Source of the DNA: Roseateles toxinivorans
GTDB lineage: Bacteria; Pseudomonadota; Gammaproteobacteria; Burkholderiales; Burkholderiaceae_C
Assembly (NCBI GenBank): GCA_945898095.1
Contig: CAMDHE010000031.1
Span: 1-40,108, forward strand
DNA: 40,108 bases
Direction of reading: 5' to 3'
In this document: one piece after another, positions 5,051 through 23,007 of the stretch
How the letters are laid out: each line of letters starts with the position of its first letter
How positions within the stretch are numbered: the stretch's first letter is position 1
Position numbers and translations under genes: made by a program
Notes under the pieces: model-generated
Databases searched by the model: none
The model's input: the letters and a program-made list of their open reading frames with translations, nothing else
Told to the model about the DNA's origin: nothing

Positions 5051-5210
5051 GGGGTCTATTCTTTCATCCCCGGCAGGGCTGCCGTGAACAGCGGGCCACA
5101 ACATTCGTCAGGGTATTCACCGATCCGCCGGCTTGGGGCAACGATGACGAGAGCCGGCGCGCTGCGGCAGGGCTGCGGGCTGTCAAGGAAAAATCGGCTC
5201 GACCAGTTAT

Positions 5211-5284
5211 TTGCTGCGGTGCAACAAAAAAAGCTTGCAAAGCTGAAAGATATGTCTATACTTCGTTTTTGTTGCAGTGCAACA
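5211..5284 (+). promoter_or_regulatory. phaP promoter with two PhaR-like operators
   Basis: A good sigma-70 promoter is present: TTGCAA (5235-5240), a 16-base spacer and TATACT (5257-5262). A perfect 15-base palindrome, TGTTGCA-G-TGCAACA, covers 5270-5284, over the expected start site. A near copy, TTGCTGCGGTGCAACA (5211-5226), lies just upstream of the -35. TGC-rich sites of this kind are bound by PhaR at phasin genes in PHA-producing proteobacteria (family knowledge). Assignment to PhaR here is inferred, since phaR is not in the window. The rest of 5051-5351 shows nothing recognisable beyond start-proximal sequence for the two divergent genes. Confidence 0.68.
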
Positions 5285-5351
5285 TTAAATGCTGACGAAA
5301 TAATTCGATCAGAAATCAACCCCGGGGTAGCCCCCGAATTAGGAGTGCTCC

Positions 5352-5915: not shown

Positions 5916-5960
5916 TTTGGGGAATTCCGGCCGCTGATGCGGTCGGTCTGAACCAACTCA

Positions 5961-5987
5961 AAACCCGGTGCTTGCACCGGGTTTTTT
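5961..5987. terminator. Bidirectional terminator between phaP and the patatin gene
   Basis: ACCCGGTG pairs with CACCGGGT around CTTG, with flanking A- and T-runs (AAA before, TTTTTT after). It serves phaP on the plus strand and plausibly the convergent patatin gene on the minus strand. Confidence 0.85.
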
Positions 5988-6018
5988 CAATTGTGCGACC
6001 GGTTTTGTACGGCTTGCC

Positions 6019-6942: not shown

Positions 6943-7054
6943 ATCCCCGCATTTTAGGGATTGACCAGCATTTACGCCGCCTTGGCAGTGGAAAGTCCGA
7001 ATGCCAAAGCGATCCAGCAAAGCCACAATGCAGGATTTACTGCAGGATCCGCCC

Positions 7055-9397
7055 ATGACTTCAAGCAAGCTGCGTCGCATTGCCATCCGGCTTTCAGTCG
7101 CTGTACCGGCTTTGCTGGTACTGCTGTTGTTGCTGGCCTGGGGCCTGCTGCGGGCCAGCCTGCCGCAACTCGACGGGGCGATCAGCTTGCCGGGTTTGAC
7201 GGCGCCGCTCGACATCAGTCGCGACGCCAACGGCACGGTCTCTGTGCAAGGCGAAAATCGCCAGGATCTGGCACGCGGGCTCGGTTTCGTCCACGCACAG
7301 GAGCGGTTTTTCGAGATGGACCTGACCCGCCGATCAGCCGCGGGAGAGCTGTCGGCCTTGTTCGGTGCCGTGGCGCTGGAGCGCGACAAGACGCGGCGCG
7401 CGCACCGCATGCGCACGCGGCTGACCGAAAGGCTGGCGCAATTGCCCGAGGCTGACAAGACGCTGCTGCTGGCCTATACCCGCGGAGTCAATGCCGGCCT
7501 GGCTGCCTTGCCGCTGCGGCCCTGGCAATACCTGCTGTTGCAGGCCGAACCGCTGGCCTGGGATCCGGTCGATTCGCTGCTGGTCGTCGGCGAGATGTTC
7601 TTCATGTTGCAGGCCGACAGTTTCGACCGTGGCTTCGAGCGCGCATGGCTGCGCGAAAGGGCAGGGGACAGCTTGTTTGATTGGCTCAATCCCCGCGGCG
7701 GCCGACGCGACGCAGCTCTTGACGGCAGCCGGCTGCCCGATCCGGACATGCCTGGCCCGGCACAACTGGACCTGCGCCAGCGCGCCATGCCGCAATTCGC
7801 CTCGAACGGCCAGGAGGATGAGGTGATCGGCAGCAACAACTGGGCCGTCGCCGGCAGCCGCAGCACCCATGGCGCTGCGATCCTGGCCAACGACATGCAT
7901 CTGAATCTTGGCGCTCCCAGCATCTGGTTCCGTACCCAGTTGCAACTTGGCAACGGGCCCAAGGCCTTGCGTGCCGCCGGCTTGAGTCTGCCAGGCACGC
8001 CCAGCTTGGTGGTCGGCTCCAACGGTTCGGTGGCCTGGGGATTCACCAACGCCTATGGCCAATGGTTTGACTGGATCGAGTTGCCGGCGCAACTGCCTCC
8101 AGGGCGGTTGAGCAAGTTCAATGAAGTGATTGCCGTCAAGGGGGCGGCGGTGCAAACGCTGGTGGTCGAAGAGTTCGACGGAGCGCCGATCGTGCAAAAG
8201 CGCGAAGGTCGACGCTATGCCTTGCGCTGGGTTGCGCACCAAGGATCGGCATTCAATATGGAGCTGGACCGGATGCTGCAAGCTGCCACGGTTGAAGACG
8301 CCTTGCGGGTCGCGCAGAGTTCCGGCCTGCCGCATCAGAACATCCTGATCGCCGACCGGGCCGGCCATATCGGCTGGACGATTGCCGGGCAGCTTTGGTC
8401 GCAGGCCGGCATGAGCAAGAGTTATGCACGCTTTCAATCGATCGATCTGCCGGGGCACAGCTGGCTGAGTCCGGCCGACTATCCGGTGCAGCGCGATCCG
8501 GCGGCGGGCCAGCTTTGGACGGCCAACAATCGCCAGCTCGGAGGCGTCGCCGCCGAGGCCATCGGTGACGGCGGCTTTGATCTCGGCGCACGCGCCCTGC
8601 AGATTCGGGATCGGCTCAGCGCCACCGCGATCCACGATGAAGCCAGCCTGGCCGCGATTCATCTGGACGACGAGGCTCGCTTCATGCAGAGCTGGGCCGC
8701 CCGCCTCGGCCCCTTGCTGGATGCCAGCCCCGGGCATGCCGGCGCTGCTGCATTGCTCAAGCAATGGAATGGCCGGGCCGATGCCGACCAGGCCGGCTAT
8801 CGGCTGGTCCGCATGGTCCGCTTGAAGACGCTTGACCTGCTCTGGGCTGCCTGGACCAGCAAGGCTTTGGGCGAGCCCCAGGCCGATGACAAACAGCGGC
8901 CAAAATGGCGTGCGCAATTCGAGTACAGCGCGGCGCGCGCCATCGATCAGCGTCCGGCCCATCTGCTGCCCAAGGACTTTGCCAACTGGGATGCCTTGCT
9001 GCTGGCGCAGGTCGATGCGGTGCTGCTCGAGCTGCGCAAGAATGAGCAAACTTTGGAGCAGGCAACCTGGGGACAGTTCAATGCCAGCCGCATTCAGCAT
9101 CCGCTGGCGCGCGCCATCCCGGCGCTGGGCTGGCTGCTCGACATGCCATCTCTGCCCCAGTCAGGGGATTCGAACCTGCCCCATGTGGCGGGGCCGGCAT
9201 TCGGGCAATCCCAGCGCTTGGTCGTATCTCCCGGCCGTGAGGAGCAAGCGACCCTGGTCATGCCTGGCGGACAGAGCGGCCACCCGTTATCACCGTTTTA
9301 CGGAGCGGGCCATGCGGACTGGGCCCGCGGCCTCAGCAAGCCCTTGCTGGCCGGGACGATGCAGCACCGGCTCAGCGCCAGCCCGGCGCGGGATTGA
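7055..9397 (+). CDS. Penicillin acylase family N-terminal-nucleophile hydrolase
   Basis: A 780-residue precursor from the ATG at 7055, chosen for AGGA seven bases upstream; in-frame ATGs at 7001 and 7028 are alternatives. An N-terminal hydrophobic helix (AVPALLVLLLLLAWGLLRAS) is a signal anchor exporting the protein. The alpha segment contains GLGFVHAQERFFEMDLTRR. The self-cleavage site is at Gly-Ser260 in VIGSNNWAVAGSR; Ser260 would become the N-terminal nucleophile of the beta chain. The Asn in beta-chain motifs (ANDMHLNL, GSNGSVAWGFTN) is also typical. Family members hydrolyse amide bonds of beta-lactams, acyl-homoserine lactones or other N-acyl compounds. Quorum quenching is possible but not shown. 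Its stop is 8 bases from the convergent fdh gene end. Confidence 0.9.
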   Translation: MTSSKLRRIAIRLSVAVPALLVLLLLLAWGLLRASLPQLDGAISLPGLTAPLDISRDANGTVSVQGENRQDLARGLGFVHAQERFFEMDLTRRSAAGELSALFGAVALERDKTRRAHRMRTRLTERLAQLPEADKTLLLAYTRGVNAGLAALPLRPWQYLLLQAEPLAWDPVDSLLVVGEMFFMLQADSFDRGFERAWLRERAGDSLFDWLNPRGGRRDAALDGSRLPDPDMPGPAQLDLRQRAMPQFASNGQEDEVIGSNNWAVAGSRSTHGAAILANDMHLNLGAPSIWFRTQLQLGNGPKALRAAGLSLPGTPSLVVGSNGSVAWGFTNAYGQWFDWIELPAQLPPGRLSKFNEVIAVKGAAVQTLVVEEFDGAPIVQKREGRRYALRWVAHQGSAFNMELDRMLQAATVEDALRVAQSSGLPHQNILIADRAGHIGWTIAGQLWSQAGMSKSYARFQSIDLPGHSWLSPADYPVQRDPAAGQLWTANNRQLGGVAAEAIGDGGFDLGARALQIRDRLSATAIHDEASLAAIHLDDEARFMQSWAARLGPLLDASPGHAGAAALLKQWNGRADADQAGYRLVRMVRLKTLDLLWAAWTSKALGEPQADDKQRPKWRAQFEYSAARAIDQRPAHLLPKDFANWDALLLAQVDAVLLELRKNEQTLEQATWGQFNASRIQHPLARAIPALGWLLDMPSLPQSGDSNLPHVAGPAFGQSQRLVVSPGREEQATLVMPGGQSGHPLSPFYGAGHADWARGLSKPLLAGTMQHRLSASPARD

Positions 9398-9405
9398 GCC
9401 TCGGA

Positions 9406-12258
9406 TCAGCTGGCGGCTTGCGCTTCCAGCTTGCGATGCGCTTGCCCGCCACCATAGCTGCCCTGAGCGCCGACTTCGCCGCCGAGGGTGACGCGGATGG
9501 CGCAGTACTTGAACTCGGGGATTTTTGCGAACGGGTCGAGCGCGGCATTGGTCAGCCGGTTGATTGCCGCTTCGTAATAGCAGAAGGGTACGAACAAGGC
9601 GCCGCGCGGCGAGCTGTCATCGGCACGGGCATATAAGGCGACCTGGCCACGCCGTGATTCGAGCGTGATCACGTCGCCTGGCTTGCCGCCCATGGCCTGC
9701 AGGTCGAGCGGATGCACGAGGGCCACCGGATCGGGTTCCAGCGCGTCGAGCATGGTGGCGCGCCTGGTCATGCTGCCGGTATGCCAATGTTCAAGTTGTC
9801 GGCCGGTGATCAGCACCATCGGGTAATCCGCGTCGGGACGTTCGGCTGCCGGAATGATGTCGGCCGGTACAAAGCGCGCCTTACCGCCGGTGAGCGGGAA
9901 GTCGTCGGTAAAGACCACCGCATCGCCGGCATCGCCTTCCTTGACGCAGGGATAGGTGACCGCATGCTCGCGCTCGAGCCGCTCCCAGGTGATGCCGGCG
10001 ATGCTGGGCATGGTGTGGCGCATTTCGTCGAAGACTTCGCTGACATGGCCGTACTGCCAGTCCAGACCGAGCTTGCTGGCGATCTGCTGGATGATCCACA
10101 GGTCCTGCTTGGCCTCGCCGGGGGGGTCGATTGCCTGGCGCCCCATTTGTACCGTGCGGTCGGTGTTGGTGAAGGTGCCGTTCTTTTCCGGAAAGGCGCT
10201 GGCTGGCAAGACGACGTCGGCAAGATAGGCCGTTTCGGTGAGGAAAATGTCCTGCACCACCAGATGCTCGAGCGCCGCCAATGCTTCCCGCGCATGGTTG
10301 GCGTCGGGGTCGGACATCGCCGGGTTTTCGCCCATCACGTACATGCCGCGAATTCCGCCGGTCTTGATCGCATGCATCACTTCGACGACGGTCAGACCGG
10401 GCGTTGCGTCGAGCGTACCTGCGGGCAGATGCCAGGCCTGCTCGAAGCGCCCGCGCACTTCGTCATCGACGACTTTCTGGTAGTCGGGGTACATCATCGG
10501 GATCAGCCCCGCATCGGAGGCGCCCTGCACATTGTTCTGGCCCCGCAAGGGGTGCAGGCCGGTGCCGGGTCGGCCGATCTGCCCGGTCATCAAGGCCAGC
10601 GCGATCAGGCAGCGGGCGTTGTCAGTGCCGTGGATATGCTGCGAAACGCCCATGCCCCAGAGGATCATCGAGGCTTTGGACCCGGCATAAAGCCGTGCGA
10701 CTTCCCGGATTGTTTCGGCTTCAATGCCGCAGATCGGTGCCATCGCCTCGGGCGAGTAGCCTTCGACATTGCGGCGCAACTCATCGAAACCGATCGTGCG
10801 GCTGGCGATGAAGTCCTGGTCGACCAGGCCTTCGGTCACGATCACATGCATCATCGCGTTGAGCAAGGCGACATCGGTGTCAGCCTTGAACTGCAGGAAG
10901 TGATCGGCCATCCTCGCCATGTCCGAGCGGCGCGGATCGCAGACGACGAGCTTGGTGCCGCCTTTGACCGCGTTCTTGATCCAGGTCGCTGCCACCGGGT
11001 GATTGACGGTCGGATTGGCGCCGATGATCAGCACCAGCTCGGCCTTGGTCACATCCATCACCGGATTCGAGACTGCGCCCGAGCCGATGCCTTCGAGCAA
11101 GGCGACGACCGAGGAGGCGTGGCAAAGCCTGGTGCAATGGTCGACGTTGTTGCTGCCGAAACCGGTGCGAACCAGCTTCTGGAACAGATAAGCCTCTTCA
11201 TTGCTGCCCTTGGCCGAACCGAAGCCGGCCAGCGAACGCTTGCCATGCTGGTCACGGATGTCCCTGAGCTTGCCGCCTGCGAGCTCGAGCGCTTCTTCCC
11301 AACTCGCTTCGCGGAAAACGTCGAGCACATGCTCGGGGTCCATCGAGAAATTGCCGGCCTTCGGCACATCCTTGCGCCGGATCAGCGGCACCGTCAGCCG
11401 ATGCGGATGGTGGGCGTAATCGAAGCCGTAGCGGCCCTTGACGCAAAGCCTTGCATGGTTGGCCGGGCCGTCGCGCCCGTCGACGAAGAGGATCTTGTTG
11501 TCCTTGACGTTATAGGTCAACTGGCAGCCGACGCCGCAGAAAGGGCAGAGCGAATCCACCTGTTTGTCAGGGACGACCAGCGCGACTTCGCGTGCCGGCA
11601 TCAAGGCACCCGTCGGACAGGCTTGCACGCATTCGCCGCAGGCCACGCAAGTCGAAGCGCCCATCGGGTCGTCCATGTCGAAGATGATCTTGGACTCATC
11701 GCCGCGGAAGGCCATGCCGATCACGTCATTGACCTGCTCGTCGCGACAGGCACGCAGACAGCGCGTGCACTGGATGCAGGCGTCCAGATTGACCGCAATC
11801 GCCGGGTGCGAGAAATCCGGCTTGGCTTGAACGCGGGCCTCGAAGCGCGATGTACCCACAGCCCGCTTGGCGGCCCATTGGTCGAGCTCGTTATTGCGGG
11901 TGTATTTGTGCTCGCCTTCGGCCACCTTTGGCATATCGGCCAGCAGCAATTCGAGCACCAGTTGCTGCGACTTCAGCGCGCGCGCGCTGTCAGTCGTGAC
12001 GACCATGCCCGGCGTTGGCGTGCGGCAGCAGGAAGGTGCCAGCACGCGCTCGCCGTCGATTTCGACCATGCAGGCGCGGCAGTTGCCGACGCAGTCCAGA
12101 CCCGGCTTGTAGCAAAGGCGGGGAATTTCCACGCCTTCGCGGTCGGCGATCTCGATCAGGGTTTCGTTTGACCTGGCGGAGACATCACGGCCGTTGAGGC
12201 GAAAGGACAGCAGCGGCGCTTCGAGTTGCGCGGCTTCATGCTTGCTGATTGCGTTCAT
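9406..12258 (-). CDS. fdh1A: NAD-dependent formate dehydrogenase, alpha (Mo/W) subunit
   Basis: A 950-residue cytoplasmic subunit oxidising formate to CO2. The N-terminal NuoG-like domain has a [2Fe-2S] set at Cys49, 60, 63 and 77. Two ferredoxin-type [4Fe-4S] motifs follow (CIQCTRCLRAC from 161, CVACGECVQAC from 204), then the proximal cluster CPFCGVGC at 238-245. The catalytic pair is Cys379-His380 in DHCTRLCHASS, equivalent to Sec140-His141 of E. coli FdhF, so this is a cysteine enzyme. The molybdopterin domains run to the end. The start has AGGAG about 8 bases upstream. It is the last gene of the oxc-frc-PAS-frc-fdh cluster and disposes of formate from oxalate. Partnered with a fused beta subunit, it resembles tungsten-type Fdh1 of Methylobacterium; the metal cannot be read from sequence. 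Confidence 0.93.
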   Translation of the reverse strand: MNAISKHEAAQLEAPLLSFRLNGRDVSARSNETLIEIADREGVEIPRLCYKPGLDCVGNCRACMVEIDGERVLAPSCCRTPTPGMVVTTDSARALKSQQLVLELLLADMPKVAEGEHKYTRNNELDQWAAKRAVGTSRFEARVQAKPDFSHPAIAVNLDACIQCTRCLRACRDEQVNDVIGMAFRGDESKIIFDMDDPMGASTCVACGECVQACPTGALMPAREVALVVPDKQVDSLCPFCGVGCQLTYNVKDNKILFVDGRDGPANHARLCVKGRYGFDYAHHPHRLTVPLIRRKDVPKAGNFSMDPEHVLDVFREASWEEALELAGGKLRDIRDQHGKRSLAGFGSAKGSNEEAYLFQKLVRTGFGSNNVDHCTRLCHASSVVALLEGIGSGAVSNPVMDVTKAELVLIIGANPTVNHPVAATWIKNAVKGGTKLVVCDPRRSDMARMADHFLQFKADTDVALLNAMMHVIVTEGLVDQDFIASRTIGFDELRRNVEGYSPEAMAPICGIEAETIREVARLYAGSKASMILWGMGVSQHIHGTDNARCLIALALMTGQIGRPGTGLHPLRGQNNVQGASDAGLIPMMYPDYQKVVDDEVRGRFEQAWHLPAGTLDATPGLTVVEVMHAIKTGGIRGMYVMGENPAMSDPDANHAREALAALEHLVVQDIFLTETAYLADVVLPASAFPEKNGTFTNTDRTVQMGRQAIDPPGEAKQDLWIIQQIASKLGLDWQYGHVSEVFDEMRHTMPSIAGITWERLEREHAVTYPCVKEGDAGDAVVFTDDFPLTGGKARFVPADIIPAAERPDADYPMVLITGRQLEHWHTGSMTRRATMLDALEPDPVALVHPLDLQAMGGKPGDVITLESRRGQVALYARADDSSPRGALFVPFCYYEAAINRLTNAALDPFAKIPEFKYCAIRVTLGGEVGAQGSYGGGQAHRKLEAQAAS

Positions 12259-12273: not shown

Positions 12274-13986
12274 TCAAGCCAATTCATGCGGGAAATACTT
12301 GACGACGCAGTCGATCGGATTCGGTGCGGCCTGACCCAGGCCGCAGATCGACGCATCGCGCATCACGGTGGACAGATCGGCCAGAAGTTCGAGGTCCCAA
12401 TACGGCTTGGCGATCAAGGCCGAGGCTTTGGCCGTGCCGTTACGGCAGGGCGTGCATTGCCCGCAGGACTCATGCTTGAAGAAATTCAGCATATTGCGCG
12501 CCGCATCGACCGCCTTGTCCTGGTCCGACAGCACGATCACCGCGGCCGAACCGATGAAGCAGCCATAGGCTTGCAGGGTGTCGAAATCGAGTGGCAAGCC
12601 GTTCAGCGAAGCGGGCAGGATACCGCCCGAAGCGCCGCCGGGCAGGTAGGCATAGAGCTGGTGACCGTCGAGCATGCCGCCGCAATATTCATCGATCAAC
12701 TGCTGCAAGCTGATGCCAGCGGGCGCCAGCTTGACGCCCGGTTGTTTCACCCGACCCGAGACCGAGAAGGAGCGCAGTCCCTTGCGACCGTTGCGGCCAT
12801 GGGAAGCGAACCAGGCGCCGCCTTTTTCGACCAGTTCGCGCACCCAGTACAGGGTCTCGAAGTTGTGCTCCAGCGTGGGCCTGCCGAACAGGCCGACCTG
12901 CGCCACATAGGGCGGGCGCAGACGCGGAATGCCGCGCTTGCCTTCGATCGATTCGATCATGGCCGATTCTTCGCCGCAGATATAGGCGCCGGCGCCGCGC
13001 CGCAGATGGATTTCGGGCAGACCGGTCAGCGGCAACTCGCGCCGCAAGATCTCGAGCTCCTCGGTCAAAACCTCGCGGCAGCCATGGTATTCGTCGCGCA
13101 GATAGATGTAGATCGAAGCGATGCCGACCGCCCAGGCTGCGATCAACATGCCTTCGAGGAAACGGTGCGGATCGCTCTCGAGCATCGTCCGGTCCTTGAA
13201 GGTGCCGGGTTCGCCTTCGTCGATGTTGACTGCCATCAGCCGCGGTCCGGTCTCGGCGCGAACGATGCGCCATTTGCGTCCGGCCGGAAAACCGGCGCCG
13301 CCCAGCCCGCGCAGGCCTGAATCTTCCAGCGTCTTGATGATGGACTCAACCTCGCGCGCTCCCGACAGGCAGTCCTGCAGCAACTGGTAACCGCCAGCGG
13401 CCCGGTAGGCGCTGAAGTTGATATAGGTCTGTTGCTGGCGCAACGGGTCGGTTCTCTCCCCTGCGCTCACTGCCGCAGCGACTTTTTCGCTGCTGGCCAA
13501 AGTGATCGGGTTTTGCCCGACCACCGCCACCGGCGCCTGTTCGCAGCGTCCGACGCAGGGCGCCGTGATCACTCGCACATCTTTGCCGAGGATTGCCGGC
13601 AAGCGCGCAAGCAGGTCGCGTGCGCCGGCCATTTCGCAGGACAAACCGTCGCAGACGCGAACGGTCAGGCTGGCCGGCGCGATTTCGCCTTCCTTGACGA
13701 TGTCGAAGTGGTGATAAAAGCTCGCCACCTCGTACACCTCGGTCTGCGCCAGACCCATCTCCTGCGCCAGGGCCGCCAGATGAGCGGTCGACAAATGGCC
13801 GTATTGATCCTGGATCTTGTGCAAATGCTCGATCAACAGATCGCGCTGCCGTGATGCTTCGCCCAGCAACAGCCTGACTTCCTGCAGGGCTGCAGCATCG
13901 ACACGCCGGCCTTTGGGCGCCTCGCGCTTGCGCTTCCTGGCAAGATCGGCGTCCAGCACCGCGATCGGTATCACTTGATGTTTCAT
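12274..13986 (-). CDS. fdh1B: NAD-dependent formate dehydrogenase, beta subunit (NuoE-NuoF fusion)
   Basis: A 570-residue fusion. Residues about 30-170 are a NuoE-like thioredoxin-fold [2Fe-2S] domain with Cys112, 117, 144 and 148. Residues about 190-570 are NuoF-like: FMN motif GLGGAGFPAGRKW (228-239), NADH motif RRGAGAYICGEESA (329-342) and [4Fe-4S] ligands Cys508, 511, 514 and 548. It passes electrons from the alpha subunit to NAD+. Fds-type formate dehydrogenases encode the NuoE and NuoF parts as separate FdsG and FdsB; the fused form of about 570 residues is characteristic of Methylobacterium-type Fdh1. It lies 42 bases after frc1 and 15 bases before the alpha gene. No fdhD or cofactor genes are adjacent. 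Confidence 0.92.
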   Translation of the reverse strand: MKHQVIPIAVLDADLARKRKREAPKGRRVDAAALQEVRLLLGEASRQRDLLIEHLHKIQDQYGHLSTAHLAALAQEMGLAQTEVYEVASFYHHFDIVKEGEIAPASLTVRVCDGLSCEMAGARDLLARLPAILGKDVRVITAPCVGRCEQAPVAVVGQNPITLASSEKVAAAVSAGERTDPLRQQQTYINFSAYRAAGGYQLLQDCLSGAREVESIIKTLEDSGLRGLGGAGFPAGRKWRIVRAETGPRLMAVNIDEGEPGTFKDRTMLESDPHRFLEGMLIAAWAVGIASIYIYLRDEYHGCREVLTEELEILRRELPLTGLPEIHLRRGAGAYICGEESAMIESIEGKRGIPRLRPPYVAQVGLFGRPTLEHNFETLYWVRELVEKGGAWFASHGRNGRKGLRSFSVSGRVKQPGVKLAPAGISLQQLIDEYCGGMLDGHQLYAYLPGGASGGILPASLNGLPLDFDTLQAYGCFIGSAAVIVLSDQDKAVDAARNMLNFFKHESCGQCTPCRNGTAKASALIAKPYWDLELLADLSTVMRDASICGLGQAAPNPIDCVVKYFPHELA

Positions 13987-14028: not shown

Positions 14029-15276
14029 TCAGATCACCTGCTCGGCGCGCAGATTGGCTATATCTGCATCGCTATAGCCCAGCTGCCGCAGCACTTCTTC
14101 GGTGTGTTCGCCCAGCAGCGGCGAGCGGGTCACCTCGGTCTTGCTGTCCGACATCTTGATCGGGTTGCCGACCGTCAGGTATTTGCCCCGCGTCGGATGG
14201 TCGACCTCGACCACCGTGCCCGACTCGCGCAGCGATTCATCTGCGGCGATTTCCTTCATCGAAAGGATCGGTCCGCAAGGAATGTCATGCTGGTTCAGGA
14301 TGTCCATGGCCGCGTATTTGTCGAGCGACATGGTCCATTTCTCGATCCGCGCAAAGATCGGTTTCAGGTGCAACAGCCTGGCGCCCGGTGTGGCATAGGC
14401 TTCGTCCTTGATCCAGCCCGGCTCTCCGATGACCTGGCAGATCGCAGGCCAGACCGCCGCTTGCGTGATGAAGTAGATGTAGGCGTTAGGGTCGGTTTCC
14501 CAACCCTTGCATTTCAGGATCGAGCCCGGCTGGCCGCCGCCTGAAGCGTTGCCCGCACGCGGCACGGCGTCGCCGAACTTGCCGTCCGGATATTGCGGAT
14601 ATTCATGCATCGTGCCATTGCGTTCGAGCCGCTGCTGGTCGCGCAGCTTGACGCGGCAGAGGTTGAGCACGGCGTCCTGCATCGGCGCCAGCACCTGCTG
14701 GCCACGCCCGGTGCTGTTGCGCTGGTAAAGCGCGGCGACGATGCCCAGAGCCAGGTGCAGACCGGTCCCGCTGTCGCCGATCTGCGCACCCGAGACAACC
14801 GGCGGGCCATCGTCGAAGCCGGTCGTCGATGCCGCGCCGCCGGCGCATTGCGCTACGTTTTCATAGACCTTGCAATGTTCGTATTTACCCGGACCGAAGC
14901 CCTTGACTGAAGCGACGATCATGCGTGGGTTCAGCGCCTGGATATGGGCCCAGGTGATGCCCATGCGGTCGAGTGCGCCAGGGGCAAAATTTTCAACCAG
15001 CACGTCGCAGGTCTTGATCAGCGCATCGAGCACCGCGCGACCCTTCGGATTTTTCGTGTCAAGCGTGATCGAACGCTTGTTGTGGTTCAGCATCGTGAAG
15101 TAGAGGCTGTCCACATCAGGAATGTCGCGCAACTGGCCACGGGTGGCATCGCCATGACCGGCGCGTTCAACCTTGATCACGTCGGCGCCAAACCATGCCA
15201 GCAACTGGGTGCAGGTCGGCCCCGACTGCACATGGGTGAAGTCGAGGATGCGGACGCCGTCCAATGCCTTGCTCAT
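14029..15276 (-). CDS. frc: Formyl-CoA:oxalate CoA-transferase paralogue 1 (variant glycine loop)
   Basis: A 415-residue class III CoA-transferase. The active-site Asp is Asp168 in [10 protein letters not shown], and the N-terminal [20 protein letters not shown] block is typical. It transfers CoA from formyl-CoA (or another acyl-CoA) to oxalate. The start at 15276 is set by AGGGGAG upstream; the open frame to 15360 lacks family similarity. It differs from paralogue 2 at the loop that shields the active site: residues 244-248 read ASGGG where paralogue 2 has AGGGG, and Ser252 replaces the Trp of GQPGW. This may alter acceptor or donor preference. It is separated from the PAS gene by 179 bases and followed by fdh1B. 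Confidence 0.9.
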
Positions 15277-15455: not shown

Positions 15456-15896
15456 TCAAGCGGCCTGCGCTTTGGCTGCCGCCTCGAGTTCCGCCAAGCG
15501 TTTACGCAATTCGCGATCCTCGGCGAAGCGCTTTGATTCGTCACGCACGATGGCGACGATGCTGTCGACCTTGTGGTCCGGCGTGTAGATCATCGACACC
15601 GTGAAAGCAATCGAAAGCGTATGTCCGTCCTTGTGCAAGGCCGGCACACGCAGCAGATCGGCACCGTATTTGGTGATGCCACTCGCCATGGTCTTGTGAT
15701 AACCATCCCAGTGGCGCTCGCGCTGCCGCACCGGGATGATCATGTCCATCGACTGGCCGATCGCCTCTGCGGCCGTATGGCCGAAGATGCGCTCGGCCGC
15801 AGCGTTCCAGAAGGTCACGAGGCCCTCGGCATCGCAGACCATGATCGCGTCGCCGGCACCGGCAACAAGTTGATTCAGATCCAGATTCGAAGGCAT
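15456..15896 (-). CDS. Stand-alone PAS domain protein
   Basis: A 146-residue soluble protein consisting of one PAS domain (about residues 8-120) and a short charged helix (RELRKRLAELEAAAKAQAA). PAS features are AIMVCDAEGLVTFWNAAAER, the FGHTAAEAIGQ turn and RVPALHKDGHTLSIAFTVSM. There is no kinase, cyclase or DNA-binding domain. The start at 15896 follows the frc2 stop by 13 bases; the longer frame overlaps frc2 and is rejected. The segment RHWDGYHKTMASG aligns with the FixL haem-helix region, but its His is offset by one, so haem binding is uncertain. The position between two frc genes suggests a sensory or scaffold role in oxalate metabolism; this is inference. Confidence 0.82.
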   Translation of the reverse strand: MPSNLDLNQLVAGAGDAIMVCDAEGLVTFWNAAAERIFGHTAAEAIGQSMDMIIPVRQRERHWDGYHKTMASGITKYGADLLRVPALHKDGHTLSIAFTVSMIYTPDHKVDSIVAIVRDESKRFAEDRELRKRLAELEAAAKAQAA

Positions 15897-15909: not shown

Positions 15910-17169
15910 TCAGACTGCTTTGGCTTCGTGCATGGCAGCGATTTCGGCGCTGCTGTAGCCGAGTTCGGCCAGCACTTCATCGGTGTTCTCGCCCAGCAAC
16001 GGCGAGCCGGTGATGATCGGCTTGAGGTCCGAGAACTTGATCGGGCTGCCGACGGTCCAGTAGCTGCCACGCTCTTTGTGCGGCACTTCGACGATCGAGC
16101 CGCTGGCACGCAGGGACTTGTCGTTGAGCAGCTCTTTCATCGAGAACACCGGCGCGCAAGGGATGTCGAACTTGCGCAGGATGTTGACCGCGTCGAACTT
16201 GGTCTTGTCCTTGAGCCAGTCTTCAATCGTGGCGAAGATGTCCATGATGTGGGGCTGGCGCGCTTTTGGCGTCATGTACAGCGGATCTGTCTTCCATTCG
16301 GGCTTGCCGATGGCGTCGCAGATCGGTGGCCAGGCGTGGCCCTGGACAGTGAAATAGATGTAAGCGTTGGGGTCGGTTTCCCAGCCCTTGCACTTCAGGA
16401 TCCAGCCTGGCTGACCGCCACCACCGGCGTTGCCGCCGCGCGGCACCACATCGGAGAAGCTCTCATGCGGGTACTGCGGATACTCTTCAAGATAGCCCAG
16501 CTTGTCCAGACGCAACTGGTCGCGCATCTTGACGCGGCACAGATTCAGCACTGCATCCTGCATCGCGACGGCGACCTTCTGGCCCTTGCCGGTTTGCTGG
16601 CGGCCGATGTAGGCAGTCAGGATGCCGATGGCCAGATGCATGCCGGTGTTGCTGTCGCCCAGGGCGGCTGCAGAGATCATCGGACCCGATTCCTCACCCT
16701 TCCACCAGCCGGTGGTGGAGGCTGCGCCGCCGGCGCATTGGGCCACGTTTTCGTAGACCTTCAGGTCTTCGTATTCATGGCCGTCGCTGAAGCCCTTGAC
16801 CGAAGCCAGGATCATCTTGGGGTTGAGTTCCTGGATGCGCTCCCAGGTGAAGCCCATGCGATCGAGTGCACCGGGGCCGAAGTTCTCGACCAGTACGTCG
16901 GATTCCTTGATCAGCTTTTCCAGCACAGCCTTGCCTTCAGGCTTCTTGGTGTCTAGCGTCAGCGAGCGCTTGTTGCTGTTGAGCATGGTGAAGTAGAGCG
17001 CGTCGACATCGGGGATGTCGCGCAACTGGCTGCGCGTCACATCGCCGGCGCCCGGGCGTTCGACCTTGATCACGTCGGCGCCGAACCAGGCCAGCAGTTG
17101 CGTGCAGGCCGGGCCGGCTTGCACATGGGTGAAGTCGATGATCTTGATACCGTTGAGGGGCTTGTTCAT
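15910..17169 (-). CDS. frc: Formyl-CoA:oxalate CoA-transferase paralogue 2 (canonical)
   Basis: A 419-residue enzyme close to E. coli YfdW and Oxalobacter Frc in length and motifs. Gln17 lies in VQAGP. The catalytic Asp172 is in [10 protein letters not shown]. An intact tetraglycine loop, [17 protein letters not shown], covers about residues 247-263. It makes oxalyl-CoA from oxalate and formyl-CoA, releasing formate. AAGGAAAG lies 8 bases before the ATG. It is 33 bases downstream of oxc and is probably the main cognate transferase, since Oxc regenerates the formyl-CoA donor. Confidence 0.95.
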
Positions 17170-17202: not shown

Positions 17203-18915
17203 TTACTTCTTCTTGGCACCGCTTTGCGGGTTCAAACTGGTGATGCGGCCGCTTTCGGTGCCGGCGGTCTCATCGATGACGGCGTTGATCAGCGTCGGTT
17301 GACCCGACTTGATCGCCTCCTCCATGGCCGCCCGCAATTCTGCCGGAGTCGTCGCATGCACGCCGATGCCGCCGAAGGCTTGCATCATCATGTCATAGCG
17401 GGCGTTCTTGACGAACACGGTCGGGGCGACATCGCCGCCGAGTTTGTTGACATCGGTGCCTTTGTAGATGCCGTTGTTGTTGAAGACAACAATGCAGACC
17501 GGCAGGTTGTAGCGACAGATGGTTTCGACTTCCATGCCGCTGAAGCCGAAGGCGCTGTCGCCCTCGATGGCGATGACTTGCTGGCCGGTCACCACCGCAG
17601 CACCGACCGAGAAGCCCATGCCGATGCCCATGATGCCCCAGGTGCCGACGTCCAGGCGCTTGCGCGGCTTGTACATGTCGACGATGCTGCGTGCGAAGTC
17701 CAGCGTGTTGGCACCTTCGTTGACGACGATCGCATCCTGGTTGTTCTTGACGATGTCACGCACCACGTTCAGCGCGCTGTGGAAATTCATCGGTGACGGA
17801 TCGAGCGCCAAAGTCGCACTCATCTTGGCCAGGTTCTTCTCGCGGCGATCGGCGATCGCGCCGGTCCACTCGGCCGGCGGCTTGGCCCAGTTGTCGCCCA
17901 TGCCGTCCAGCAGTGCAGCGACGCAGGACCCGATGTCACCAATCACCGGTGCGGCGATCGCCACATTGCTGTCGATCTCGGTCGGTGCGATGTCGATCTG
18001 TATGAACTGCTTGCCGTTCGGCGCGCCCCAGGTCTTGCCCTTGCCATGCGAGAGCAGCCAGTTCAGCCTTGCGCCGATCAGCATCACCACATCGGCCTCG
18101 GCCAGCACATAGGAGCGTGCCGGTGCCGCCGATTGCTCATGGGTGTCGGGCAGCAGGCCCTTGGCCATCGACATCGGCAGGTAAGGAATACCGGATTTTT
18201 CAACCAGGGTGCGGATGTCTTCATCGGCCCTGGCATAAGCCGCGCCCTTGCCAAGCAGGATCAGCGGGCGCTTGGCGCCCTTGAGAAGGTCCAGCGCGCG
18301 CTGCACCGAATCAGCTGCCGGCAACTGGCGCGGGGCCGGGTCGACGACATGGATCAGCGAATGTTTGCCGGCTTCGGCATCCATTGTCTGCGAGAACAAC
18401 TTGGCCGGCAGATCCAGGTAGACGCCGCCCGGGCGTCCCGACAGCGCCGAGCGGATTGCACGGGCAATGCCGACGCCGATGTCTGCGGCATGCAGCACCC
18501 GGAACGCGGCCTTGCACAATGGCTTGGCGATCGCGAGTTGGTCCATTTCCTCGTAATCGCCCTGCTGCAGGTCGACGATCTCGCGCTCGCTCGAGCCGCT
18601 GATGAGAATCATCGGGAAGCAGTTGGTTGTCGCATTGGCCAAAGCGGTCAAACCGTTCAGGAAGCCAGGCGCCGATACGGTCAGGCAGATGCCGGGCTTG
18701 CCGGTCAGGAAACCTGCGGCGGCAGCGGCATTGCCGGCATGCTGCTCATGGCGGAACGAGATCACGCGGATGCCTTCGGCTTGCGCCTTGCGGGTGAAGT
18801 CGGTGATCGGAATGCCGGGCAAACCGAAGATCGTGTCGATGTCGTTGAGTTTCAGCGCATCGATGACGAGGTTAAAGCCGTCGGTCAAATCGCGCTCTTG
18901 AGTGTCGTTTGTCAT
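17203..18915 (-). CDS. oxc: Oxalyl-CoA decarboxylase
   Basis: A 570-residue thiamine-diphosphate enzyme, the same size as Oxalobacter Oxc (about 568). The ThDP-activating Glu57 lies in [15 protein letters not shown]. The C-terminal ThDP/Mg motif is [11 protein letters not shown] followed by FNNNGIYKG. It decarboxylates oxalyl-CoA to formyl-CoA and CO2 in the cytoplasm; formyl-CoA then recycles through Frc. It is the first gene of the operon oxc, frc2, PAS, frc1, fdh1B, fdh1A. The start at 18915 has GAGAG about 9 bases upstream. It is divergent from a Crp/Fnr-type regulator with an FNR-like site between them. Confidence 0.96.
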
Positions 18916-19051
18916 GTGGGATTGTCTCTCTGTGAAGCAGGTTGATCTGTCTGTGCCGGTGCATGAAGAAGATCAGCTTGGACTATGATTGGCGGCCTCC
19001 TTGTGCGCCTATGACCGAGGTCAAGATTTTTAAAATGAGCTGTTTTGACCT
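18916..19051. promoter_or_regulatory. oxc / Crp-Fnr regulator divergent region with FNR-like site
   Basis: On the minus strand TTGAC-CTCG-GTCAT covers 19024-19011, matching a TTGAC-N4-GTCAA-type Crp/Fnr site with one mismatch. A -10-like CATAGT toward oxc lies at 18987-18982, placing the site centre near -42.5, the class II activator position. No good -35 is present, consistent with activator dependence. CCTATGACC recurs at 19008-19016 and 19049-19057, 41 bases apart (about four helical turns). GGTCAA (19019-19024) also forms an inverted pair with TTGACC (19045-19050), which could allow autoregulation. Confidence 0.62.
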
Positions 19052-19660
19052 ATGACCTTGCTCGCTAACCATGCAGAGAAAAACGTGATCCGCCTGCAAT
19101 TGCAGCAGAACATCGTTCTCCAGGATCTAGATCGGGAAGATCGGGCCGAGTTGGAGCGGCACCTGGTGATCGTCGACGGCCGCAAGGGCGAGTTCTTGCT
19201 GATGCAGGGTGTGCGCGAGATGGAGCAGTACTTCGTTCTCGATGGCATTCTCAAGCGTGTGGTCGCCAACAAGGAAGGCAAGGAGATGATCCTGCGCTTT
19301 GCTTGCGAGCGCGACATGGAGACCAGTTACGCCGCCTGGCGCTTGGGCGATGCCACACCTTATGGCATCGTCTGCGTCACCAAGGCCCGCGTGGCGCGAC
19401 TGCCCTTGTCCGACTGGGTCGAGTTTCTCGAAAAACGCCCCAAGGTCAAAGCTGCTTTCGAGTTATCGGTCATGCGAGGCATGAGTGAGATCATGGCGCA
19501 CACGATCACATTGCATTTGCTCGACGCGACAGGACGGATGCAGCGCTTCTTGCGCAAGCGCCCGGAACTGGTCGAATCGATTCCGCAGAAGGAATTGGCG
19601 GCTTATCTGAACCTGTCCGCGGAAACTTTGAGCCGATTGATTCACAGCGGCAAGGTCTGA
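19052..19660 (+). CDS. Crp/Fnr family transcriptional regulator of the oxalate locus
   Basis: A 202-residue protein. A cyclic-nucleotide-binding-like beta-barrel covers about residues 18-125, a dimerisation helix about 130-160, and the helix-turn-helix 178-202 (QKELAAYLNLSAETLSRLIH). The recognition helix has Glu191, Ser194 and Arg195 in E-T-L-S-R, the spacing FNR uses to read TTGAT/TTGAC half sites. Only Cys85 and Cys108 are present and there is no N-terminal cysteine cluster, so a [4Fe-4S] oxygen switch is unlikely; the effector is unknown. The protein ends right after the recognition helix, shorter than most relatives. The start codon has only a weak ribosome site; GTG at codon 12 is a possible alternative. 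It is divergent from oxc, so it is the likely oxalate regulator. Confidence 0.88.
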   Translation: MTLLANHAEKNVIRLQLQQNIVLQDLDREDRAELERHLVIVDGRKGEFLLMQGVREMEQYFVLDGILKRVVANKEGKEMILRFACERDMETSYAAWRLGDATPYGIVCVTKARVARLPLSDWVEFLEKRPKVKAAFELSVMRGMSEIMAHTITLHLLDATGRMQRFLRKRPELVESIPQKELAAYLNLSAETLSRLIHSGKV

Positions 19661-19685
19661 GGCGGCGCGCGAGCTTTCGCCAGAA

Positions 19686-19720
19686 GAAGGGCCGGGCCAG
19701 AAGGCCCGGACCCTTCGTTT
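19686..19720. terminator. Hairpin between the regulator and tctA (convergent)
   Basis: GAAGGG-CCGGGCC pairs with GGCCCGG-A-CCCTTC around an AGAA loop, with one bulged A. A short GTTT follows on the plus strand. It probably ends both convergent transcripts, though the U-tract is poor. Confidence 0.6.
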
Positions 19721-19722
19721 GA

Positions 19723-21252
19723 TCAATCAACCGGTTGTTGTGCAGCGAATTCGTTCACTTTGGGCTTGCGAAACAAGCCCAGCAGCTTGGAGATCAAGGG
19801 CCAGAACAGCAAGGTGAGTGCCAAGGTGGTAATGGTGCCGACCAACGGATTCGCCCACATGATCCCGACATCACCCTGCGAGACCAGCATGGCCTGGCGG
19901 AATGAATCTTCAGCCTTGTCTCCCAGAACCAAGGCCAGCACCATCGGCGCCAGTGGAATGTCGATCTTCTTGAAGACATAGCCGATGACACCAAACCCGA
20001 GCATCAACCAGATGTCGAGCATCGCGTTGTGCACGGTGTAGGCGCCGATGGCGCAGATCACGATGATCACGGGCGCGATGATCGAGAATGGAATCCGCAG
20101 GATCGAGGCGAACAAGGGCACCGTGCTCAACACCACGATCAGGCCGACAACATTGCCGAGGTACATGCTGGCGATCAAACCCCAGACAAATTCCTTCTGC
20201 TCGACAAACAGCAGCGGTCCGGGCTGCAAACCCCAGATCAGCAGACCACCGAGCAGCACGGCAGCCGTTGGCGAACCAGGAATGCCGAGTGCCAGCATCG
20301 GTAACAAGGCAGCGGTGCCGGCCGCATGGGCGGCTGTTTCAGGGGCGATCACGCCTTCCATTTCACCGGTGCCGAACTTGGGCCCATTGCGAGACATCTT
20401 CTTGGCCAGGCCGTAACTCATGAACGAAGCTGGTGTGGCCCCGCCCGGTGTGATGCCCATCCAGATGCCGATCAGCGAACTGCGCAATGAGGTGACCCAG
20501 TACTGCGGCAATTGTTTCCATGTCTGCCATACAACCTTGCGGTCGATCTTGGCGCTCTTGCCCTGGAAGTTCAAACCCTCTTCCATCGACAGCAGAATTT
20601 CACCGATGCCGAACAGGCCGATCACGGCGATCAGGAAGTCAAAGCCGCGCATCAACTCGATCTGGCCGAATGTCAGGCGCAATTGCCCGGTCACCGTGTC
20701 CATACCGACTGCTGCGAGCGCAAAGCCGAGGGCCATTGAAATCAGGATCTTGAACGGCGATCCCTTGCCCATGCCGACAAAACTGCAGAAGGTCAGCAGA
20801 TAGACCGCGAAAAATTCTGGCGAGCCGAACTTGAGTGCGAACTTGGCGACCAGCGGGGCGAGGAAGGTGATCATCACCACTGCGACAAAGGCGCCGACAA
20901 AGGACGAAGTGAAGGCCGTGGTCAGTGCCGCGCCAGCATGGCCTTTCTGTGCCATCGGGTAGCCGTCGAAGGTGGTCGCAACCGACCAGGGTTCGCCTGG
21001 AATATTGAACAGAATCGAAGTGATTGCGCCGCCGAACAAAGCGCCCCAATAAATGCAGGACAGCATGATGATGGCCGAGGTGGGCGACATCGTGAAGGTG
21101 AGAGGCAGCAAAATGGCCACGCCATTGGCCCCGCCAAGACCGGGCAGAACACCGATCAGCACGCCAAGAATGATCCCGACGAACATCAGACCGATATTCA
21201 TCGGTGTCAGGATCACCGCAAAGCCCTGCATCAGGGAATTGATTTCTTCCAT
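19723..21252 (-). CDS. tctA: Tripartite tricarboxylate transporter, large membrane subunit TctA
   Basis: A 509-residue integral membrane protein with about 11-12 hydrophobic segments. Family signatures are visible: GVLIGVLPGLGGANGVAILL (about residues 30-49), the GxxxGGAITSILFNIPGEP loop (about 71-90) and, in the second half, GMGITPGGATPASF-like and ALGIPGSPTAAVLLGGL repeats. It is the translocation channel for organic anions delivered by TctC. A GGAG lies about 9 bases before the ATG, and the tctB stop is 21 bases upstream. It is the last gene of tctCBA. Its position beside oxc suggests oxalate or a related dicarboxylate as cargo (inferred). Confidence 0.94.
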   Translation of the reverse strand: MEEINSLMQGFAVILTPMNIGLMFVGIILGVLIGVLPGLGGANGVAILLPLTFTMSPTSAIIMLSCIYWGALFGGAITSILFNIPGEPWSVATTFDGYPMAQKGHAGAALTTAFTSSFVGAFVAVVMITFLAPLVAKFALKFGSPEFFAVYLLTFCSFVGMGKGSPFKILISMALGFALAAVGMDTVTGQLRLTFGQIELMRGFDFLIAVIGLFGIGEILLSMEEGLNFQGKSAKIDRKVVWQTWKQLPQYWVTSLRSSLIGIWMGITPGGATPASFMSYGLAKKMSRNGPKFGTGEMEGVIAPETAAHAAGTAALLPMLALGIPGSPTAAVLLGGLLIWGLQPGPLLFVEQKEFVWGLIASMYLGNVVGLIVVLSTVPLFASILRIPFSIIAPVIIVICAIGAYTVHNAMLDIWLMLGFGVIGYVFKKIDIPLAPMVLALVLGDKAEDSFRQAMLVSQGDVGIMWANPLVGTITTLALTLLFWPLISKLLGLFRKPKVNEFAAQQPVD

Positions 21253-21273
21253 TTTAATTTTTCTCCGGGAGGA

Positions 21274-21807
21274 TCAATAGCCGAGGAAGCTCAATGGGTC
21301 GAGTGAGCCTTTGAACAAAGGCACCTTGAACCAGACTTCGAACATGAAGAAGAAGAGCGTGTTGACGGCCGCTGCGGCAATCAGGCTCTTGACCCAGGAG
21401 TAATGCCCCAGAATGATCATGAATAGCGCGATATAGATGGCCGATGCCAGGTAAAGCCCGAGATAGCCGACTCCCAAAACGTAGACCGCTGCTGGCACCA
21501 GCACCGAGGCCACCCGCTTGAGTTGGACGGTGTCGACGAAGGGCGCGGTTCTGCGGTTTTTGCCGAGAACAGACTCGAACAGCAAGCCCAGGCTTGCGAC
21601 GATGATGATCGCGCCGATGATGAAGGGAAAGTAGCCCGAACCGGGGCCATCGTTGGTCCAGCCTGCACCGAGACGCAGGCTTTCGACGATCACTACCGTT
21701 CCGAGAATCAGCAGAAGCACCGCCACCACGGCCTCCACCCTGTTTGTGGCCACCACCGGTTGGCCGGTCTCTTCGGCCAGTTCTTCGTTTTCCATTGCAA
21801 GCGCCAT
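21274..21807 (-). CDS. tctB: Tripartite tricarboxylate transporter, small membrane subunit TctB
   Basis: About 177 residues with four hydrophobic segments, the usual TctB topology. Recognisable parts are VEAVVAVLLLILGTVVIVES (first helix), the GPGSGYFPFIIGAIIIVASL block (a TctB hallmark near residue 60) and GLYLASAIYIALFMIILGHY. It stabilises the TctA channel. The exact start is uncertain: ATG at 21807, ATG at 21795 or GTG at 21840 are possible, none with a strong Shine-Dalgarno. It lies between tctC and tctA in one transcription unit. Confidence 0.88.
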   Translation of the reverse strand: MALAMENEELAEETGQPVVATNRVEAVVAVLLLILGTVVIVESLRLGAGWTNDGPGSGYFPFIIGAIIIVASLGLLFESVLGKNRRTAPFVDTVQLKRVASVLVPAAVYVLGVGYLGLYLASAIYIALFMIILGHYSWVKSLIAAAAVNTLFFFMFEVWFKVPLFKGSLDPLSFLGY

Positions 21808-21883
21808 CCAATTTAAGTCTTTGAAAAACCTCGCGCCCACCGCGTTACCGCAGTGAGCGCTGCTAGGCCGGGAAAGGCTCTGC

Positions 21884-22900
21884 TTACTTGGGCAGGAAGC
21901 CAGCCTCTGCCATCAGAGCTTTGTGCGTCGTCTCCGCAGCTTCAAGCCATTTTGCGAACGGCGCGCCGGTCAGGAAGGTCGGGTTGAATGCACCCTTCTC
22001 CAGGAATTCGGCCCAATCTGGTGTGGCGCGAACTTTCTTCAGCAAGTCAATATAGAAGGCCAACTGGTCAGCAGTGACTCCCGGGGCCATGAAGATGCCG
22101 CGCAGCATCACGTAGTCGGTCGGTACACCAGCTTCCTTGCAGGTCGGGATGTCGTTCCAGGACATTGTGTCCGTGACCTTGGCCTTGAAAGGCATGCGCT
22201 CGTCATCGAATACGCACAGGGCGCGCAGCTTGCCAGCGCGCCATTGCGCGACGGCCTCGATCGGGTTGTTCACGGTTGAATTCACATGGCCACCAACCAA
22301 TTGCACCGCCACTTCACCGCCGCCCTTGAAAGGCACGTAGATGAACTTGGTGCCGGTCGCTTTTTCGAGCGCCACGGTAATGATCTGGTCTTCCTGCTTC
22401 GATCCGGTCCCCGCCATCTTGAATTTGTTCGGGCCTGCGGCTTTCACTGCAGCGATATAGTCCTTGGCAGTCTTGTAAGGCTCATCGGCATTGGTCCAGA
22501 GTACAAACTGGTCGAGCGCCATCATGGCAACCGGGGTCATGTCTTTCCAGTTGAAGGGCAAACCGGTCGCCAACGGCGTTGTGAACAGGTTCGACAGGGT
22601 AATGATGATCTTGTGTGGGTCACCCTTGGCGTCCTTGACTGCCAAAAAGCCTTCGGCGCCCGCCCCGCCCGACTTGTTGACAACGATGAGAGGTTCCTTC
22701 ATCAGCTTGTGCTTGATGACGATACCTTGCAGCAGGCGTGCCATTTGATCGGCGCCGCCACCGGTTCCTGCGGGCACGACGAATTCCACCGGCTTGGTGG
22801 GTTCCCATGCTGATGAGGGGGTGGCAAATGCGAACGCAGCCAAGGCGGCGCAAGCGACGGCAATGCGTTGGCGAGTGGGCGAGAAGGGGGCTTGGTTCAT
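21884..22900 (-). CDS. tctC: Tripartite tricarboxylate transporter substrate-binding protein (TctC/Bug family)
   Basis: A 338-residue periplasmic binding protein. The signal peptide covers residues 1-31 (RIAVACAALAAFAFATPSSA, cleavage likely before WEP). The mature part has PVEFVVPAGTGGGADQMARL, VVNKSGGAGAEGF and YVPFKGGGEVAVQLVGGHVN, matching Bug solute receptors. GGAGA lies close to the ATG at 22900; the open frame to 23158 is unsupported. It is the first gene of tctCBA. An FNR-like site at 22994-23007 sits about 100 bases upstream, matching that in front of oxc, which supports a role in oxalate uptake. The ligand is otherwise unknown. Confidence 0.92.
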   Translation of the reverse strand: MNQAPFSPTRQRIAVACAALAAFAFATPSSAWEPTKPVEFVVPAGTGGGADQMARLLQGIVIKHKLMKEPLIVVNKSGGAGAEGFLAVKDAKGDPHKIIITLSNLFTTPLATGLPFNWKDMTPVAMMALDQFVLWTNADEPYKTAKDYIAAVKAAGPNKFKMAGTGSKQEDQIITVALEKATGTKFIYVPFKGGGEVAVQLVGGHVNSTVNNPIEAVAQWRAGKLRALCVFDDERMPFKAKVTDTMSWNDIPTCKEAGVPTDYVMLRGIFMAPGVTADQLAFYIDLLKKVRATPDWAEFLEKGAFNPTFLTGAPFAKWLEAAETTHKALMAEAGFLPK

Positions 22901-22993
22901 GCTGTCTCCGTTGTTGCTAGGGGGCAATTCGTCTGGTCTTTCGTCCTGGAATCCCAGAGCGATGATCTTGCCCCCTTGGCTGGAAAATATTGG

Positions 22994-23007
22994 TTGACTG
23001 CGGTCAT
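22994..23007. promoter_or_regulatory. FNR-like site upstream of tctC, near-twin of the oxc site
   Basis: TTGAC-TGCG-GTCAT is read on the plus strand. It matches the oxc-upstream site TTGAC-CTCG-GTCAT at 12 of 14 bases. Its centre is 100 bases from the tctC start (oxc: 102). A weak -10-like CAAGAT on the minus strand (22970-22965) puts the site at about -42.5, as at oxc. It could also influence rmuC, which starts at 23110. The rest of 22901-23109 shows nothing else recognisable. Confidence 0.6.

Follow-up and report, generated by a model that had tools for sequence, protein, structure and literature searches.

What tells an oxalate-using bacterium to switch the pathway on? Oxalate ranks among the major organic acids found in plants, fungi and soils and makes up the bulk of most kidney stones, and the transport and the enzymes that serve its use by bacteria are already known; a published description of a dedicated oxalate transcriptional switch was not found in the open-access literature. 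The question is raised by a stretch of 40,108 nucleotides (nt) from Roseateles toxinivorans (assembly GCA_945898095.1, contig CAMDHE010000031.1, positions 1 to 40,108), termed the window hereafter, in which the gene of a 202-residue protein of the Crp/Fnr superfamily lies divergent from oxc, the gene of oxalyl-coenzyme A (CoA) decarboxylase (Oxc), and close to tctCBA, encoding a tripartite transporter. The original prediction, made from these letters alone, had joined oxc and tctC into one regulon through a shared FNR-like site. That one Crp/Fnr-type protein and one operator join oxalate decarboxylation to the tripartite transporter is a comparative case, strong across the clade and good in this genome. 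An unstudied small DNA-binding protein, apparently shared by numerous bacteria of a single order that live in soil and water, probably switches the oxalate pathway on.

A Conserved Predicted Operator before oxc and tctC

The predicted operator of oxc, TTGACCTCGGTCAT (19011-19024, minus strand), is centred at about -42.5, lies 27 nt before the regulator start and differs at one position from TTGACCNNGGTCAA, while that of tctC, which reads ATGACCGCAGTCAA along the gene (22994-23007, minus strand), differs from the consensus at two. On the plus strand the latter reads TTGACTGCGGTCAT and shares 12 of 14 bases with TTGACCTCGGTCAT, and the site centres lie 102.5 nt and 100.5 nt from the start codons of oxc (18915) and tctC (22900), so that the places, the identity and the distances originally reported were all borne out on the window sequence. 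Both genes stand on the minus strand, and in gene direction the match drops to 10 of 14, a difference that hardly matters since the site is palindromic.

The pattern alone proves nothing, because its genome-wide counts are near the control or simply high. The form first proposed, TTGAC-N4-GTCA[AT], has two matches in the window where 0.15 would be expected, as many being attained in 3 of 100 shuffles, and across the genome it is found at 12 distinct places (11 forward and 6 reverse matches, five places being matched on both strands) compared with 5 + 6 matches of the reversed control. Oxalate genes adjoin only the two window places among the 12, as judged by eye from open reading frame (ORF) starts, with no family search run on the other ten. 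Exact-pattern statistics were consequently dropped as evidence, and the motif TTGAC-N4-GTCAT was replaced by the family consensus TTGACC-N2-GGTCAA, derived from the oxc-regulator intergenic regions. The consensus with at most two mismatches is itself present at 440 places in this genome versus 214 for its control. The case therefore rests on conservation; the genome scan proposed at the outset gave conserved sites before oxc and tctC in relatives, and an exact pattern near its control in this genome.

Conservation was followed in two collections. The close-relative set comprises the best 80 of at least 517 loci, is biased to Variovorax and its relatives, includes Polaromonas, Herminiimonas, Oxalicibacterium and others besides, and excludes upstream regions shorter than 300 nt from the counts. 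The wider set is made up of the window, stretches of 13 relatives and a draw across the order, and partly covers the same genomes (e.g., L139 and L166); one gene per family was taken per locus, oxc and tctC were accepted at 55% identity or more, starts less than 60 nt from a stretch end were excluded, and a match means at most two mismatches within 400 nt upstream. The site precedes oxc in 64 of 67 loci of the wider set and in 73 of 73 close relatives, and tctC in 30 of 48 and 54 of 56, respectively, against a background of 16 among 475 random 400-nt windows from the wider-set loci. Conservation before both genes where the regulator is kept, the point on which the original prediction had staked itself, was thus found, and a single operator for oxc and tctC held with the reservation that 18 of the 48 wider-set tctC loci lack the site. 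The tctC copy in the window is the weakest link of the case for this genome, with two mismatches, yet its position and its -10 element are conserved.

The site tracks the regulator more closely than it tracks oxc. In a draw across the phylum it precedes oxc in all six regulator-positive genomes and in one of 22 regulator-negative ones, the regulator's absence from the 22 being taken from a separate phylum search with an equal number of genomes drawn, and a partial match in G640 being left out; an explanation by the presence of oxc alone was thereby ruled out. The site also follows changes of gene order. Where oxc is not divergent from the regulator, it is still preceded by the site in 19 of 21 cases, and of the two formyl-CoA transferase (frc) genes, frcB is preceded by it in 15 of 69 wider-set loci and frcA in none of 16. 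An frc gene divergent from the regulator carries the site in 13 of 14 cases, against 2 of 70 for other frc genes.

Promoter Geometry

Both window promoters carry a -10-like hexamer on the minus strand, CATAGT for oxc (18982-18987) and CAAGAT for tctC (22965-22970), in which an A occupies offset 38 and a T offset 42 counted from the operator start, so that transcription of oxc would begin near 18975 and that of tctC near 22958. Among flank-dereplicated sites, pre-selected at two mismatches or fewer, 60 of the 62 oxc promoters and 40 of the 46 tctC promoters show an A/T pair that has the spacing of A-11 and T-7 in a -10 element and whose A falls at offset 37 or 38, compared with means of 4.2 and 3.6 and maxima of 9 and 10 at control offsets. 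An A at offset 37 or 38 places the site centre at -41.5 or -42.5. A -35-like consensus was sought at offsets 14-19 of the dereplicated promoters and none was seen. The site does not serve as a -35 element itself, its TTGACC half lying 31 nt from the -10, far past a normal spacer. The geometry found, with a site at about -41.5, a -10 element and no good -35, is that of class II activation, as had been proposed for the two window promoters, and it is conserved beyond them. At the inner offsets 4, 5, 8 and 9 of the dereplicated oxc sites, the CC..GG bases occur in 89, 85, 68 and 84%.

The Regulator Protein

The regulator (19052-19660, plus strand; orthologues in relatives 58-89% identical) is, by its sequence, a member of the Crp/Fnr superfamily and neither CRP nor FNR. 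Its sensor domain is a beta-roll of the cyclic-nucleotide (cNMP) type (PF00027, 28.9 bits, cut-off 27.5), a profile search also matches CRP and DNR chains, and the profile alignment spans CRP up to the recognition helix, which assigns the C-terminal helix-turn-helix; a separate Pfam match to a helix-turn-helix was not obtained. The recognition helix contains E191-T-L-S194-R195 and is followed by only seven residues to the chain end. An alignment of 161 sequences, 149 of them distinct, revealed that E191, S194, R195, R69, R82, R162 and R165 are invariant, so that the E-x-x-S-R signature noticed in the window protein is present in every member. The FNR link was upheld in that helix and not in the protein as a whole: conserved cysteines of the FNR type were sought in the 161 sequences and none were found, the best column holding Cys in 82 and 41 sequences having no Cys at all.

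The protein falls equally short of CRP, scoring 23.5 bits with the NCBIfam equivalog NF008732 against a cut-off of 266. At the positions aligned with CRP G71, E72, R82, S83, R123, T127 and S128 it has T, S, T/A/M/I, P, L/G, I/V and M, respectively, the replacements T91 and P103 being found in 161 of 161 sequences, S92 in 157 and M148 in 160, which indicates that the regulator is not a canonical cyclic AMP (cAMP) binder. R69 and R82, counted on the profile alignment, correspond to CRP V49 and S62, residues that line its pocket for cAMP, where a pair of arginines would favour a small dianion like oxalate. The best solved sequence match by profile is 3dn7 (E 2.7e-13). In some close relatives (L094, L097, L102 and L103) a second copy of the regulator, 40-45% identical, was seen within a few kb.

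Distribution and Co-Occurrence

With thresholds of E < 1e-60 for the regulator and at least 60% identity for true Oxc, 14 of 59 relatives hold the regulator and 13 hold Oxc; all 13 Oxc genomes are regulator-positive, as is one of the 46 others (Fisher p 3e-12, with the genomes treated as independent though related). The regulator is present in 76 of 399 genomes drawn from the order and in 8 of 398 drawn from the phylum, all eight belonging to the same order, while oxc occurs in 30 of those 398; as far as these samples go, the regulator is an order-level addition to an older oxalate pathway. One stretch labelled Cytophagales (L144) holds the whole oxalate locus and would break the order limit; as it encodes a regulator with 86% identity to one from Comamonadaceae, it is probably a mislabelled bin.

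Wider-set stretches with the regulator and without an oxc match of at least 55% are L188, L197, L213, L217, L226, L228 and L232-L234, together with seven genomes described below; among the genomes of these nine stretches, G091 (L188) was the only one searched whole, and Oxc was found elsewhere in it.

The fourteenth regulator-positive relative, G041, belongs to Collimonas, two long matches to Collimonas fungivorans showing 93-97% DNA identity. In its stretch L155, one-mismatch sites precede the oxalate/formate antiporter OxlT (TIGR04259, 650 bits, cut-off 335) and one copy of a thiamine diphosphate (TPP) enzyme. Between the other copy and the regulator the consensus is matched exactly. Of two sites with two mismatches, one stands before a further antiporter-like gene, which shares 58% identity with the first antiporter, and the other has no assigned gene. 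Shuffles of L155 gave a mean of 0.88 sites of at most two mismatches, with a maximum of four. The switch thus seems to accompany oxalate use with either transporter, TctABC or OxlT. In the literature, OxlT has been named as the transport route (PMC11045627), and clusters of oxc, frc and antiporter genes were upregulated in Burkholderia terrae facing a fungus (PMC5209427), the passages on these clusters making no mention of a Crp/Fnr regulator.

The TPP enzyme (564-588 aa; 26-28% identical to Oxc) is divergent from the regulator in seven genomes, namely G041, G070, G115, G314, G166, G082 and G126, in which, at 94-100% completeness, a genuine Oxc was sought and none was found. It was located in L155 (18103-19866 and 1694-3457), L167, L170, L181, L183, L185, L190 and L075, the genome of the last being outside the Oxc search. 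Its gene has an frc gene as neighbour in six of seven stretches, Collimonas being the exception, and in six of seven the intergenic region shared with the regulator has a site of at most two mismatches ahead of the regulator gene (three mismatches in L181). The best solved relatives, for the one protein searched, are 2-hydroxyacyl-CoA lyases; the four proteins scanned fell under the NCBIfam Oxc cut-offs, and their top model, acetolactate synthase, was also under its cut-off. The enzyme is accordingly put forward as a candidate non-orthologous oxalyl-CoA decarboxylase of the 2-hydroxyacyl-CoA-lyase type.

Exact Sites across Genomes

Searched genome-wide, the exact consensus yields 46 sites in a selection of 30 among the 76 regulator-positive genomes of the order draw, against one for the reversed control, and 14 sites in the 14 regulator-positive relatives, the control again giving one. 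Of these 60 sites 59 were examined, a match on contig 20 of G019 being left out. For 33 of them, oxc, tctC, the regulator gene or one of several further marker genes begins no more than 420 nt downstream, a descriptive count since the fhs, fds, ligase and PanE markers were picked after the matches had been seen. The markers are formate-tetrahydrofolate ligase (fhs, 7 genomes), a succinate/malate-CoA ligase (7), a PanE-like reductase (2) and formate dehydrogenase (1), one example of each having been identified and the rest assigned by similarity to it; the ligase passes the cut-off for succinate-CoA ligase and misses that for malate-CoA ligase (549 bits vs 604).

In G046 (L280), a row of minus-strand genes (8380-9555, about 7484-8350, 5645-7465, 2835-5828 and 1007-2677) with two operator sites lies a few kb from the oxalate locus and comprises a succinate/malate-CoA ligase pair, FdsGB, a formate-dehydrogenase-type alpha subunit and formate-tetrahydrofolate ligase, possibly a formate-assimilation arm. 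Three genomes from a single family (L284, L310 and L312) also carry exact sites 63-66 nt upstream of thiG, the gene of thiamine thiazole synthase; because Oxc needs thiamine diphosphate, cofactor supply may belong to the regulon, the alternative being a site shared by descent.

In 45 regulator-negative relatives TTGACCNNGGTCAA has 30 exact matches, against 10 for the control, which implies that other regulators may use the site; 21 of the 30 were examined, and none of the 21 precedes an oxalate or formate marker gene or the regulator.

Proposed Mechanism and Alternative Explanations

The sites, their spacing, their conservation and their co-occurrence with the pathway can be read directly from the genomes. 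On this basis, a signal, most likely oxalate or oxalyl-CoA, would cause the regulator dimer to bind TTGACC-N2-GGTCAA centred near -42, from where it would recruit RNA polymerase in class II fashion at promoters that have no -35 element. The genes oxc-frcA-PAS-frcB-fdsGB-fdsA, presumably co-transcribed given their order and strand, would be switched on together with tctCBA, and uptake, CoA transfer, decarboxylation and formate oxidation would rise jointly; in some other lineages the response would extend to fhs, fds, succinate/malate-CoA ligase, the PanE-like reductase or OxlT, before which the same site is found. Taken as a whole, this explanation, in which the 202-residue protein is a pathway-specific class II activator of oxalate use governing the window operon, tctCBA and these wider targets, is considered very likely. 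A bolder version is offered tentatively and is rather doubtful as a whole: the protein would represent an undescribed, Burkholderiales-centred Crp/Fnr subfamily that senses oxalate or oxalyl-CoA directly through R69 and R82, coordinates uptake, decarboxylation, formate oxidation and one-carbon (C1) assimilation, and exposes a second, non-orthologous oxalyl-CoA decarboxylase in genomes without Oxc.

Several observations weigh against the activator explanation. The window sites are degenerate, with one and two mismatches, and such matches are common in the genome (440 vs 214); 18 of 48 wider-set tctC loci have no site of at most two mismatches; 15 of the 30 regulator-positive genomes lack any exact site; and 26 of the 59 exact sites lie near no listed gene, including the three before thiG. 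To these are added the excess of TTGACCNNGGTCAA over its control in genomes without the regulator (30 vs 10 in 45 genomes), the choice of markers after the fact, and the circumstance that we infer binding, activation and effector.

The excess without the regulator, together with the FNR-like TTGAC half-sites and E-x-x-S-R helix, would fit a general regulator of the FNR/Anr/Dnr type that places oxalate genes under oxygen or nitric-oxide control. This is very improbable, for in the same genome draw the oxc site accompanies the regulator (6/6 with it vs 1/22 without), and the frequent inner CC..GG differs from the TTGAT-N4-ATCAA of FNR, although the latter argument is partly circular, the sites having been picked by nearness to that consensus. 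A chance match at tctC in the window, with the oxc-regulator intergenic site as the only true operator serving autoregulation and oxc, accords with the two mismatches of that copy, the abundance of such matches in the genome and the 18 wider-set tctC upstream regions without a site; it is the least probable of the readings weighed here, given the site in 54 of 56 close relatives and a -10 offset kept in 40 of 46 dereplicated tctC sites and in the window copy itself.

The two remaining alternatives retain the regulator and alter its mode or its signal. Bound at its site, which spans the -35 region (about -49 to -36), the protein could be a repressor that blocks the promoter until released by oxalate or a CoA ester. 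This is improbable, since no -35-like consensus is found at a suitable distance from the -10 (offsets 14-19) and the spacing between site and -10 varies by no more than 1 nt, as expected for polymerase contact. Formate or formyl-CoA could instead be the signal, reflecting C1 supply, a notion that draws on the exact sites before fhs (7 genomes), succinate/malate-CoA ligase (7) and formate dehydrogenase (1) and is unlikely without being far-fetched; the regulator hardly occurs without an oxalate pathway among the 59 relatives, being present in 13 of 13 Oxc genomes and in one of 46 others, that one being the Collimonas with OxlT.

Gene Complement of the Window

The gene assignments on which the original prediction relied (regulator, oxc, frc and tct) were confirmed by TIGR03254, by TIGR03253 twice, by the Pfam families of TctA, TctB and TctC and by the cNMP-binding-fold family. 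All the following genes lie on the minus strand: oxc (17203-18915; TIGR03254, 991 bits, cut-off 739), the formyl-CoA transferase gene frcA (15910-17169; TIGR03253, 714 bits, cut-off 504), a gene for a 145-residue PAS-domain protein (15456-15893; PF00989), and a second formyl-CoA transferase gene, frcB (14029-15276; TIGR03253, 725 bits, cut-off 504), whose start was set by homology within an ORF reaching 15360. The same-strand row continues past frcB to an FdsG-FdsB fusion of an NAD-linked formate dehydrogenase (12274-13986), named from its 2Fe-2S thioredoxin-like and Nuo51 domains and its position and scoring below the cut-off of every NCBIfam model, and to the formate dehydrogenase alpha subunit FdsA (9406-12258; TIGR01591, 773 bits, cut-off 666), so that the window covers uptake, CoA transfer, decarboxylation and formate oxidation. 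The transporter is encoded by tctC, its binding protein (21884-22900; PF03401), with the start at 22900 set by homology and a look at the signal peptide within an ORF reaching 23158, by tctB (21274-21840; PF07331) and by tctA (19723-21252; PF01970).

The PAS-domain protein occurs in 60 of 134 loci with oxc and frc, and it lies between both frc genes in 56 of the 57 loci that have both; may it be a second sensor within the operon? Outside the oxc operon, a penicillin-amidase-family protein (7001-9397, plus strand) and a weak CitMHS-like transporter, scoring under its cut-off (2507-3862, minus strand), were also seen.

Significance and Comparison with Known Systems

With an operator, a promoter geometry and a regulator defined, the question of an oxalate switch becomes directly testable, and a candidate part for an oxalate biosensor is at hand. 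The finding also ties the tripartite TctABC transporter to oxalate and points to a possible second kind of oxalyl-CoA decarboxylase.

Among known systems, CRP of E. coli belongs to the same superfamily, with a cNMP-type sensor domain, a helix-turn-helix, a palindromic site and the class II position; the present regulator differs in the replaced cAMP-cassette positions and in a chain that ends soon after the recognition helix. The solved 3dn7, a "cyclic nucleotide binding regulatory protein", likewise ends near the helix. FNR and Anr have in common with the regulator the E-x-x-S-R helix, TTGAC/T half-sites and class II activation. FNR senses oxygen by means of four conserved cysteines that hold a 4Fe-4S cluster, whereas the regulator has no conserved cysteines, recognizes by prediction TTGACC-N2-GGTCAA and has a regulon centred on one carbon source. 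CprK and CooA, ligand-specific Crp/Fnr activators, are likewise local, being encoded beside the pathway they control, and respond to a non-nucleotide effector, as is proposed here for the regulator; they differ in signal and regulon. Regulated oxc and frc homologues are also found in yfdXWUVE of E. coli, where EvgA and YdeO exert two-component and AraC-type control for acid tolerance, rather than control of the Crp/Fnr type proposed here for oxalate use.

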